Assembly (NCBI RefSeq): GCF_001708405.1
Contig: NZ_CP012418.1
Location: forward strand, 1,516,501-1,580,500
DNA: 64,000 nucleotides
Direction: 5' to 3'
DNA from: Kangiella sediminilitoris
Lineage (GTDB): Bacteria; Pseudomonadota; Gammaproteobacteria; Enterobacterales; Kangiellaceae
Shown: positions 46,529-49,464 of the stretch, piece by piece
Layout: the number at the start of each line of letters is the position of its first letter
Numbering within the stretch: the stretch's first letter is position 1
The notes under the pieces: model-generated
The model's database searches: none
What the model was told of the DNA's origin: nothing
Seen by the model: only the letters and a program-made list of their open reading frames with translations
Program-made: the position numbers and the translations under genes

Positions 46529-46611
46529 AAATTAGTTGGTTGTTCTTAAAGTATGGAGACAGTCTACCCGTCATTAGCGTTTAGTAAAAGATGCACCTGA
46601 TGAATTTCAAA

Positions 46612-46625
46612 TTGATTCACATCAA
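46612..46625 (+). promoter_or_regulatory. Perfect FNR box upstream of the chorismate mutase-ubiU-ubiV operon
   Basis: TTGAT-TCAC-ATCAA, a 10/10 match to the FNR/ANR consensus. Its centre (46618.5) is 41.5 bases before the start expected from the TAAAAT hexamer at 46648-46653, the spacing of a class II activated promoter. No good -35 is needed or seen. This indicates anaerobic induction. Confidence 0.85.
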
Positions 46626-46647
46626 TGGTTCTTAAAGCTAGTCATCT

Positions 46648-46653
46648 TAAAAT
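46648..46653 (+). promoter_or_regulatory. -10 element of the FNR-dependent promoter
   Basis: TAAAAT (5/6 to consensus) with a start expected at about 46660, giving a 25-base leader before the chorismate mutase ATG at 46685. An overlapping TATACA at 46653-46658 is the alternative. Confidence 0.55.
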
Positions 46654-46684
46654 ATACAACTTCAAAATAAACCGAACCAAAGTC

Positions 46685-46966
46685 ATGCAAAAGCTTGAAG
46701 CTATCCGCCAACAGATTGATAAACTTGATCTTAAGCTACTGGAAATTATAGCTAAACGTTCCACTGAGATTGATAAAATAAACAAAATTAAACAAGCAGA
46801 AAGACAAGAGGCTTTTGATCCTAACCGTGAGCAGGAAATTTTGAACCGCTTACACAAACATAATAAATCCTTATACAACTCGGCTGAAATTGGTTCTATT
46901 TATAAAGCAATTTTTAAAGCGAGCATCATGCTTCAGCATCGCCTGAGAGAAAAGGTAGAAAATTAA
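46685..46966 (+). CDS. Chorismate mutase, AroQ type, stand-alone
   Basis: 93-residue helical protein converting chorismate to prephenate. The start is ATG 46685 (MQKLEAIRQQIDKLDLKLLEII); the longer frame from 46625 would overlap the FNR box. Compared with the E. coli chorismate mutase domain all eight active-site residues are present: R8, R25, K36, D45, R48, E49, S80 and Q84. It is not fused to prephenate dehydratase or dehydrogenase. It ends one base before ubiU, so it is in the ubiUV operon behind a perfect FNR box. This is an unexpected partner: chorismate is the precursor of the ubiquinone ring. Isochorismate/chorismate lyase activity of PchB type is an alternative. Confidence 0.85.
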   Translation: MQKLEAIRQQIDKLDLKLLEIIAKRSTEIDKINKIKQAERQEAFDPNREQEILNRLHKHNKSLYNSAEIGSIYKAIFKASIMLQHRLREKVEN

Positions 46967-46967
46967 T

Positions 46968-47957
46968 ATGGATCTTGTATGCCCTGCTGGTAATTTCCAG
47001 TCCCTAAAAAAAGCTGTCGATAATGGTGCTAATGCTGTTTATATCGGAATGAGAAATGAAACCAACGCCCGACATTTCGCAGGCTTAAATTTTGCTGTGA
47101 AAGATATCACTCAAGCCATTGACTATGCCCATAACAATCAATGTAAAGTTTACTGCGCCATCAATACCTACCCACGGCAAGACAAATGGAGGCTGTGGAC
47201 GCAAGCAGTTGATCAAGCAATGGATCTCGGAATCGACAGCCTGATTGTCGCTGACTGTGGGGTGATGGACTATATACGACAGAAGTCAGACACTTTCCCC
47301 ATTCACCTCTCGGTTCAGGCATCAGCTACTAACCTGGAATCTCTAAACTTTTATTATCAGAATTTTGATATACGTCGAGCAGTGCTACCTAGAGTTCTGT
47401 CGCTGGCTCAAGTCACTCAGTTAGCAAAAAAATCCCCGGTTGAGATAGAAGTATTTGGCTTTGGTAGTTTATGCATTATGGCCGAGGGTCGGTGCTACCT
47501 ATCTTCCTATATGACAGGTGAATCGCCGAACACTCAAGGTGTCTGCTCACCTTCATCCCATGTGCGCTGGGATGAAAAGGACGGTGTATTACAGTCTCGA
47601 CTTAATAATTTACTGATTGATCAATATGAGCCCCATGAAAATGCCGGTTACCCAACCTTATGCAAAGGTCGATTCGAGATTGAAGGAAACGTTGAGTATG
47701 CCTTGGAAGAACCAACAAGCCTGAATACCATGGATATCTTACCCGAACTTTCCTCAGCGGGAGTAGCGGCAATTAAAATTGAAGGTAGACAACGTAGTCC
47801 TGCCTATGTCGCCACTGTGACGGATATCTGGCGACGGGCAATTGATGCTGCAAACGGAAAAGCAGTAAACACAACAGAGGCTGATCGTAATAAACTTTCC
47901 AGCTTATCTGAAGGGAGGCAAACCACCATTGGCGCTTACGAGCGCAGCTGGCAATAA
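46968..47957 (+). CDS. ubiU: UbiU, oxygen-independent ubiquinone hydroxylation (U32 family)
   Basis: 329-residue U32-peptidase-like protein. UbiU and UbiV form a [4Fe-4S] heterodimer needed for ubiquinone ring hydroxylation without O2. The four cluster cysteines C169, C176 (LCIMAEGRC), C193 (GVCSP) and C232 (TLCKGRF) fall at the same positions as in E. coli. The N terminus MDLVCPAGNFQSLKKAVDNGANAVYIGMRNETNARHF and IKIEGRQRSPAYVATVTDIWRRAID are family features. It follows the chorismate mutase by one base and is 14 bases before ubiV. Control by FNR fits its anaerobic role. Confidence 0.96.
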   Translation: MDLVCPAGNFQSLKKAVDNGANAVYIGMRNETNARHFAGLNFAVKDITQAIDYAHNNQCKVYCAINTYPRQDKWRLWTQAVDQAMDLGIDSLIVADCGVMDYIRQKSDTFPIHLSVQASATNLESLNFYYQNFDIRRAVLPRVLSLAQVTQLAKKSPVEIEVFGFGSLCIMAEGRCYLSSYMTGESPNTQGVCSPSSHVRWDEKDGVLQSRLNNLLIDQYEPHENAGYPTLCKGRFEIEGNVEYALEEPTSLNTMDILPELSSAGVAAIKIEGRQRSPAYVATVTDIWRRAIDAANGKAVNTTEADRNKLSSLSEGRQTTIGAYERSWQ

Positions 47958-47971
47958 TAAAGGTAATAGTA

Positions 47972-48874
47972 ATGAAGACCTCTCTTGCCTCAGTTCCTTA
48001 CTACTGGAGTAAGGAAGAATATCAAAACTTTTATGCGGAAGTTGCCCAAACCGAGATTGATATCGTTTACCTTGGGGAAACCGTCTGCTCGAAACGTCGT
48101 AGCATGAAACTACAGGACTGGCTTTACGTTGCCGACAATCTTTCTAGTGCTGGCAAAGAAGTATACCTTTCTACTTTGTCACTTATGGAAGCAGAGTCAG
48201 AGTTAAGCTACCTACGCAACCTGGTCAAAAAGAGTGAACTGCCTATCGAAGCCAACGACATGTCGGCTATTCAGATTGCAAACACTTTTAAACGCTCCTT
48301 TGCCGCGGGCAATCCAATTAATATCTACAACAGCCAAACTTTAAAAAGACTCCATAGTCTGGGAATGAACCGTTGGAATATTCCTGTCGAGCTAGGACGG
48401 GAAGATATCGCTCCAGTCACACCGAAGGCAAAAGAGTTAGGCATTGAACTGGAGTATCAAGTGTTCGGAAGAATGCCGTTGGCCTATTCAGCGCGTTGCT
48501 TTACCGCGAGACATCATAACCTTCCGAAAGATAATTGCCAGTTTAAGTGCTCCGAAGATATAGAAGGCATTTTAGTCAATACTCGTGAAGGTGATAGTTT
48601 TGCTCAAATCAACGGCATACAGACCCAGTCAGCGAAAGTCAGCAACCTGCTTAATCACTGGCAAAACCTCGAGCAAAACGGTATTGATATAGCGCGAATA
48701 GTACCGGTATCTCCTCCCGATACCATTGAGGTTGTGAACTGCCTAACTCAGGCAATTAGAAATAACAATAAAAAGGCAGGGTTCGAACCTCATGATAACG
48801 AAAAAAGTAGACGAGAATACTGTAACGGCTATTGGTTCCAGTTAGCTGGTTTAGAAATGGTCGAAGCTACTTAG
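47972..48874 (+). CDS. ubiV: UbiV, oxygen-independent ubiquinone hydroxylation (U32 family)
   Basis: 300-residue partner of UbiU. The [4Fe-4S] cysteines are C39 (GETVCSKRRS), C176 (ARCFTARHHN), C189 and C193 (DNCQFKC), matching the spacing of characterised UbiV. Other conserved parts are VYLSTLSLMEAESELSYLRNL and IEANDMSAIQIANTF. It is the last gene of the operon, convergent with ubiT with 59 bases between them. The heterodimer is thought to use prephenate-derived or other non-O2 hydroxyl donors; in E. coli prephenate has been reported as donor, which matters for the adjacent chorismate mutase. Confidence 0.95.
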   Translation: MKTSLASVPYYWSKEEYQNFYAEVAQTEIDIVYLGETVCSKRRSMKLQDWLYVADNLSSAGKEVYLSTLSLMEAESELSYLRNLVKKSELPIEANDMSAIQIANTFKRSFAAGNPINIYNSQTLKRLHSLGMNRWNIPVELGREDIAPVTPKAKELGIELEYQVFGRMPLAYSARCFTARHHNLPKDNCQFKCSEDIEGILVNTREGDSFAQINGIQTQSAKVSNLLNHWQNLEQNGIDIARIVPVSPPDTIEVVNCLTQAIRNNNKKAGFEPHDNEKSRREYCNGYWFQLAGLEMVEAT

Positions 48875-48933: not shown

Positions 48934-49464
48934 TCAACTACCTTTTAAAGTCCGAGCGTAGACTGACATTATCTGACGAACAATATTTGGAATAACTTCA
49001 GACGGTAAAGTATCCAGAGTATTTTTAACATGATGTGCCAGCTCCGTATCCCCTCTTATGCTCAGCTTTCTCTGAAAAAATAAAGTATCAGGATCGACGG
49101 TCTGCTGCATTAGTTCGATAGCACAAAGTGTATCGATAGACAGTGTAGCATCATATCTGTATTCCTGATTTTTCGTGCCATTGAGGAGGTCGTAACAACA
49201 AAGGCGAGATGATGAATAGCCAATGATCACAATAAGTCTGGCATCCTTGATTTCAATAGCCAGTTGCCTGCCTTCTAAATATTTAAATTCCTGACCTGTT
49301 AACTGTGGCAGTAACCGATTATTTAATACCCATTGTATAAGCCTGACATTGACACCCTTTGGTAATGTTGTAACAAGCTGCCCAAGGTTCTTTGGCTGGA
49401 GTATCTGTTGACCAATCTCCTGTATAAAGACAGTCGGTTTATTTATTAGCTTTGCTGTGTTCAT
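48934..49464 (-). CDS. ubiT: UbiT, SCP2-domain accessory protein for anaerobic ubiquinone synthesis
   Basis: 176-residue SCP2-fold lipid-binding protein that replaces UbiJ under anoxia, carrying ubiquinone intermediates for UbiUV. The SCP2 domain is RLIQWVLNNRLLPQLTGQEFKYLEGRQLAIEIKDARLIVIIGYSSSRL..., TLSIDTLCAIELMQQTVDPDTLFFQRKLSIRGDTELAHHVKNTLDTL. It is convergent with ubiUV; its own upstream region, shared with rsxA, carries a weaker FNR-like site. Length matches E. coli YhbT. Confidence 0.92.
   Translation of the reverse strand: MNTAKLINKPTVFIQEIGQQILQPKNLGQLVTTLPKGVNVRLIQWVLNNRLLPQLTGQEFKYLEGRQLAIEIKDARLIVIIGYSSSRLCCYDLLNGTKNQEYRYDATLSIDTLCAIELMQQTVDPDTLFFQRKLSIRGDTELAHHVKNTLDTLPSEVIPNIVRQIMSVYARTLKGS

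Follow-up and report, generated by a model that had tools for sequence, protein, structure and literature searches.

A chorismate mutase gene opens a predicted FNR-controlled ubiU–ubiV operon in Kangiella: a candidate source of prephenate for O2-independent ubiquinone synthesis

Why should a chorismate mutase gene stand at the head of an operon for ubiquinone hydroxylation? The question is raised by a stretch of 64,000 nucleotides of the Kangiella sediminilitoris genome (hereafter the window), in which the gene for a small mutase ends 1 base before ubiU, which in turn ends 14 bases before ubiV (Table 1). UbiU and UbiV contribute to the O2-independent hydroxylation of ubiquinone precursors, as shown for the Escherichia coli proteins (PMC10470549). 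The first-pass annotation of this DNA had stated that prephenate is a reported hydroxyl donor in the E. coli pathway, and a review citing Ferizhendi et al. (2024, PNAS) bears this out: according to it, the hydroxyl groups of anaerobically made ubiquinone are reported to come from prephenate. Our comparative sequence analysis argues that the mutase, which would be switched on by FNR along with ubiU and ubiV, probably supplies prephenate as the hydroxyl donor for O2-independent ubiquinone synthesis. A full-text literature search returned no paper that combines UbiU, UbiV and chorismate mutase, and the words 'fusion' and 'prephenate' are absent from the main text of a survey that compared the ubiTUV architecture of 1562 genomes (PMC11707229). 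The enzymes are known, as is the hydroxylase system that they belong to; what is new is the recurrent operon that joins them and, in other lineages, their natural fusions.

Table 1. Coordinates of the features discussed. Positions without a locus prefix are those of the window.
Feature	Coordinates	Strand	Evidence or remark
FNR box TTGATTCACATCAA	46612..46625	+	10/10; centre at -41.5 from predicted start
-10 element TAAAAT	46648..46653	+	22 nt past FNR box; predicted start ~46660
Monofunctional AroQ chorismate mutase, 93 aa	46685..46966	+	Pfam CM_2, 7.4e-17, 61.8 bits, cut-off 27
ubiU	46968..47957	+	NF047963, 532.5 bits, cut-off 440
ubiV	47972..48874	+	NF047965, 356.6 bits, cut-off 275
ubiT (SCP2 accessory factor)	48934..49464	-	NF047962, 93.6 bits, cut-off 46.9; convergent with ubiV
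Second stand-alone chorismate mutase	L033:7158-7439 (genome 1350157-1350438)	-	only other CM_2 gene of the window genome
cmoA	L033:7507-8235		adjoins second mutase, divergent
cmoB	L033:8249-9244		follows cmoA
Stand-alone mutase, orthologous, G002	L046:4955-5206		away from ubi and cmo genes
Stand-alone mutase, orthologous, G006	L048:494-835		unlinked from ubiU, away from cmo genes
CM_2-UbiT open frame, G848	L305:1339-2325		CM_2 then UbiT domain
CM_2-UbiT open frame, G852	L306:871-1755		CM_2 then UbiT domain

The sequence TTGATTCACATCAA upstream of the mutase is the sole 10/10 FNR box of the window, where shuffled sequences lead one to expect 0.11; FNR-like matches with up to two mismatches occur at background frequency (56 observed against 51). 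The spacing between this box and the -10 element follows the pattern of a class II FNR-activated promoter, with a start site predicted from sequence only. We rejected a longer mutase reading frame that begins at the ATG at 46625, which lies inside the FNR box and ahead of the predicted start; the mutase is best read from the ATG given in Table 1. The box, the -10 element, the mutase gene, ubiU and ubiV are predicted to form one transcript. The layout described in the first-pass annotation, with an exact FNR box centred 41.5 bases before the predicted start and gaps of 1 and 14 bases between the genes, agrees with these coordinates.

The two genes downstream of the mutase had been named ubiU and ubiV, and both products pass the curated models of those families. 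UbiU has its Fe-S cysteines (169, 176, 193 and 232) intact, as does UbiV the motif CXnCX12CX3C (cysteines 39, 176, 189 and 193), so that family models and cysteines together place the proteins in the UbiU–UbiV group, with a predicted hydroxylase function. Convergent with ubiV is ubiT, previously unlisted, which is placed likewise in most of the loci that join a chorismate mutase (CM) gene to ubiU. We found no convincing FNR box before ubiT, two-mismatch matches being at background in the window. The locus thus resembles the ubiUV operon and ubiT of E. coli and other Pseudomonadota in its families, its Fe-S cysteines and its FNR control, which has been reported for 87% of 1566 ubiTUV triplets (PMC11707229). 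It differs from the E. coli ubiUV operon in that a chorismate mutase gene comes first.

The product of this first gene retains all eight active-site residues of E. coli PheA (R11, R28, K39, D48, R51, E52, S84 and Q88; reference sequence verified against 1ECM), and its earlier description as a complete AroQ chorismate mutase is upheld by this and by its CM_2 score. Its relatives in the PDB are 5gmu, 3nvt and 1ecm, of which 5gmu and 3nvt match best. Length, fold family and the eight residues are like those of monofunctional AroQ mutases and of the CM domain of AroA(G) (5gmu and 3nvt), but the protein is not fused to a DAHP synthase, dehydratase or dehydrogenase. A PheA P-protein was rejected on account of the short length and of a genome without PF00800, and a PheA remnant was considered and rejected too. 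These features suggest that the protein makes prephenate from chorismate. Lyases also exist among AroQ proteins, and Gln88 and Asp48 are mostly lost in the UbiT-linked members described below; both facts would suit some other reaction of chorismate in the service of ubiquinone, such as a pyruvate-releasing lysis to 4-hydroxybenzoate by analogy with the isochorismate lyase PchB. We consider this quite unlikely, because the window protein keeps the full set of mutase residues and scores 70 bits with mutase models against 23.5 bits for PchB, which also led us to reject a PchB-like lyase as its identity.

The genomic setting raises a further question, that of what the prephenate would be for. Prephenate dehydratase (PF00800) and prephenate dehydrogenase (PF02153) are absent from the window genome, a single contig of 2,496,140 bases, and from that of K. 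profundi; the same searches were positive for both families in 14 of 14 control genomes. The phenylalanine auxotrophy of K. profundi has been growth-tested, and loss of the dehydratase cluster is reported for K. profundi and K. sediminilitoris (PMC6000758). The window genome encodes chorismate synthase, and each of the two strains has two mutases despite lacking both downstream enzymes; in K. profundi both mutases are under purifying selection. Apparently, then, prephenate is not needed for amino acids in either. Across the genus, prephenate dehydrogenase is absent from 19 of 20 genomes.

A reduced genome that has lost its dehydratase might simply carry a leftover of the phenylalanine pathway that came to lie upstream of ubiU. 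We think a relic or chance neighbour very improbable. As judged from dN/dS, the ubiU-linked mutase is under strong purifying constraint despite the loss of the dehydratase in K. profundi and the window genome: the ratio is 0.033 when K. profundi is compared with G016, in which the dehydratase is present, 0.18 between the window genome and its orthologue in G021, and 0.03–0.23 over the scorable Kangiella pairs. Also against it are the short gaps (1–8 bases) and promoter conserved in 13 loci, the same gene order where PheA persists, and the recurrence in other lineages, and on these grounds chance adjacency was set aside.

FNR control of an enzyme at the chorismate branch point would also permit the mutase to drain chorismate in anoxia and so limit its other users, with no donation of hydroxyl. 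Some steering of chorismate in anoxia, which the first-pass annotation had offered beside direct supply, is possible; flux control in place of donation is scarcely credible to us. Draining would take chorismate away from 4-hydroxybenzoate, which is made under the same condition as the precursor of ubiquinone, and genomes without dehydratase and dehydrogenase have no known prephenate sink beyond the U32 enzymes and CmoA.

Of 40 Kangiellaceae genomes searched, 15 have a UbiU over the cut-off, and in 12 of these the mutase gene immediately precedes ubiU on the same strand, with gaps of 1–8 bases. The link also recurs in other lineages, so that the adjacency is not peculiar to this genome, a restriction that the first-pass annotation would have counted against its proposal. 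Within Kangiella, UbiU occurs in 8 of 20 genomes; all eight have the mutase directly upstream, and none of the 12 without UbiU has a mutase of the ubiU-linked kind (Fisher test, 8e-6, with kinship not accounted for). Every one of the 13 CM-ubiU loci, which include one metagenome-assembled genome (MAG) labelled Aeromonadales, carries an FNR box (0–2 mismatches) upstream of the mutase and a hexamer, TAxAAT or TATAAT, at 21–22 nt from it, and the promoter is therefore conserved together with the operon. Operon and FNR promoter are kept across Kangiella and Aliikangiella. The 80 named loci nearest to the window UbiU added K. shandongensis and Aliikangiella coralliicola, with arrangements that had all been seen already. 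Exceptions to the linkage are G004 and G037, in which ubiUV is present and the mutase absent, and G006, whose orthologous stand-alone mutase is unlinked.

One further CM_2 gene in the window genome, short and stand-alone and the last of its kind there, offers a parallel. It adjoins cmoA-cmoB, and a mutase is divergent from these genes in 14 Kangiella genomes. CmoA and the RNA U32 hydroxylase TrhP, both confirmed here by family model, are prephenate-dependent, and CmoA forms its product from prephenate. Each stand-alone Kangiella mutase found adjoins either ubiU or the cmoA-cmoB set, both of which are prephenate-using. The two mutases of the window genome are 29% identical and fall in the same clade, separate from PheA, and therefore look like products of an old duplication; the tree is built on few alignment columns and leaves many forks open, and all that we take from it is that the Kangiellaceae clade stands apart from the rest.

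The presence of these other prephenate-dependent enzymes bears on a broader reading, in which the mutase supplies prephenate at low oxygen to all its users in the cell, among them TrhP and CmoA, and lies ahead of ubiU merely to come under FNR control, with no special tie to UbiUV. G002, which keeps an orthologue but lacks UbiU, speaks for this reading and suggests that the ancestral role of the mutase may have been broader than UbiUV. We nevertheless hold general supply to be improbable, if the least so of the readings weighed thus far against supply to UbiUV: a second mutase already stands at cmoA-cmoB, the ubiU-linked copy occurs in all 8 Kangiella genomes with UbiU and in none of the 12 without, and CM_2-UbiT fusions exist.

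Under the preferred reading, supply of the hydroxyl donor to UbiUV, depletion of oxygen would lead FNR to induce the stand-alone mutase with UbiU and UbiV, and the mutase would convert chorismate to the prephenate used in O2-independent ring hydroxylations. Each ubiquinone would call for one chorismate to form 4-hydroxybenzoate and, given three hydroxylations, for up to three prephenates. Free of the regulatory dehydratase part of PheA, the mutase might remain active when amino acids are plentiful or PheA has been lost. Even in peptide-eating Kangiella that have PheA, a free mutase could be useful, as PheA would probably be held back by phenylalanine taken up from outside. The cmoA-cmoB paralogue may perform the same service for tRNA modification by CmoA and possibly TrhP. 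The U32 hydroxylases TrhP and RlhA require prephenate and share with UbiU–UbiV both enzyme family and this metabolite need; in E. coli their prephenate comes from PheA and TyrA with no dedicated mutase gene described, whereas the Kangiella operon has one. Direct passage of prephenate to UbiUV by channelling is possible.

Few studies so far support prephenate as the organic oxygen donor in O2-independent hydroxylation by U32 enzymes. In the Kangiella locus, evolution couples prephenate production to its presumed consumer in cultured strains without the usual prephenate consumers, and K. profundi and K. sediminilitoris offer a clean genetic system for the donor hypothesis.

How far does the association extend beyond Kangiellaceae? 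Of 369 genomes drawn evenly from the class, 92 have UbiU, and besides the window genome five genomes from five families had a CM_2 gene next to ubiT or near ubiUV, against a rough chance expectation of 0.27 (assuming two CM_2 genes, about four neighbour places and 2700 genes per genome). The weakest of the five (G076) has a CM_2 frame near ubiUV that lacks R11 and counts as a possible case only. The linkage is kept in all genomes with CM_2 of family f43 (7/7) and of family f121 (6/6), G847 has the order ubiT, CM_2, ubiV on a single strand, and in one alphaproteobacterial genus CM_2 directly follows ubiV in three genomes. Several of the clusters outside Kangiellaceae carry FNR boxes with 0–1 mismatch. 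No dehydratase scored over the cut-off in the sampled genomes of families f40, f43, f121, f150 and f167, many of which are draft or incomplete; the three alphaproteobacteria have one. A CM gene directly upstream of ubiU was not found outside Kangiellaceae in the class and phylum draws, and the named collection gave one further case, the 'Aeromonadales' MAG. In most of the UbiU-bearing genomes sampled beyond Kangiellaceae no CM_2 gene lies close by, so the UbiUV pathway does not require the mutase, nor is the mutase universal in it; where the link is absent, PheA or TyrA presumably supplies prephenate. On balance, family-wide conservation, recurrence, fusions and persistence without the phenylalanine and tyrosine branches amount to strong comparative evidence for the functional link between mutase and UbiUV proposed in the first-pass annotation, and its alternative of steering chorismate explains less.

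In two genomes of family f121 (G848 and G852), CM_2 and UbiT domains share one open frame, in which the SCP2 and CM_2 domains pass their Pfam cut-offs and the UbiT model its own. Such natural fusions open the donor hypothesis and possible channelling to testing. In other families, the CM_2 proteins linked to UbiT keep R11, R28, K39, R51 and E52, but D48 is replaced in most, and Gln88, which the E. coli enzyme needs for efficient catalysis, is retained by the G848 fusion alone and elsewhere gives way to G, T, M, A, D or V. The Kangiellaceae ubiU-linked mutases keep both K39 and Q88. On sequence we file the UbiT-linked proteins without Gln88 as AroQ-fold relatives and not as mutases; weak mutase activity, a role in binding and a different reaction are all conceivable for them. 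The recurrence may therefore not in every case mean prephenate supply. In family f121, where the UbiT-linked gene is the only CM_2 gene found, either this protein still makes prephenate, or another type of mutase does, or another donor is used. Fusion to UbiT in two genomes and frequent loss of Gln88 with the substrate-binding arginines and lysine kept, in lineages without a dehydratase, lead us to float, tentatively and as a minority view, that an AroQ-fold module belongs, again and again, to the functioning UbiTUV apparatus. In those lineages it might hold prephenate or a related donor and pass it on, or carry out a new reaction, instead of serving as an ordinary mutase. Among the UbiT-linked proteins that share the loss of Gln88 (loci L066, L113, L132, L133, L292 and L295–L303), many have a motif like LLRQ[FY]xxPG in its place, which suggests a distinct subfamily.
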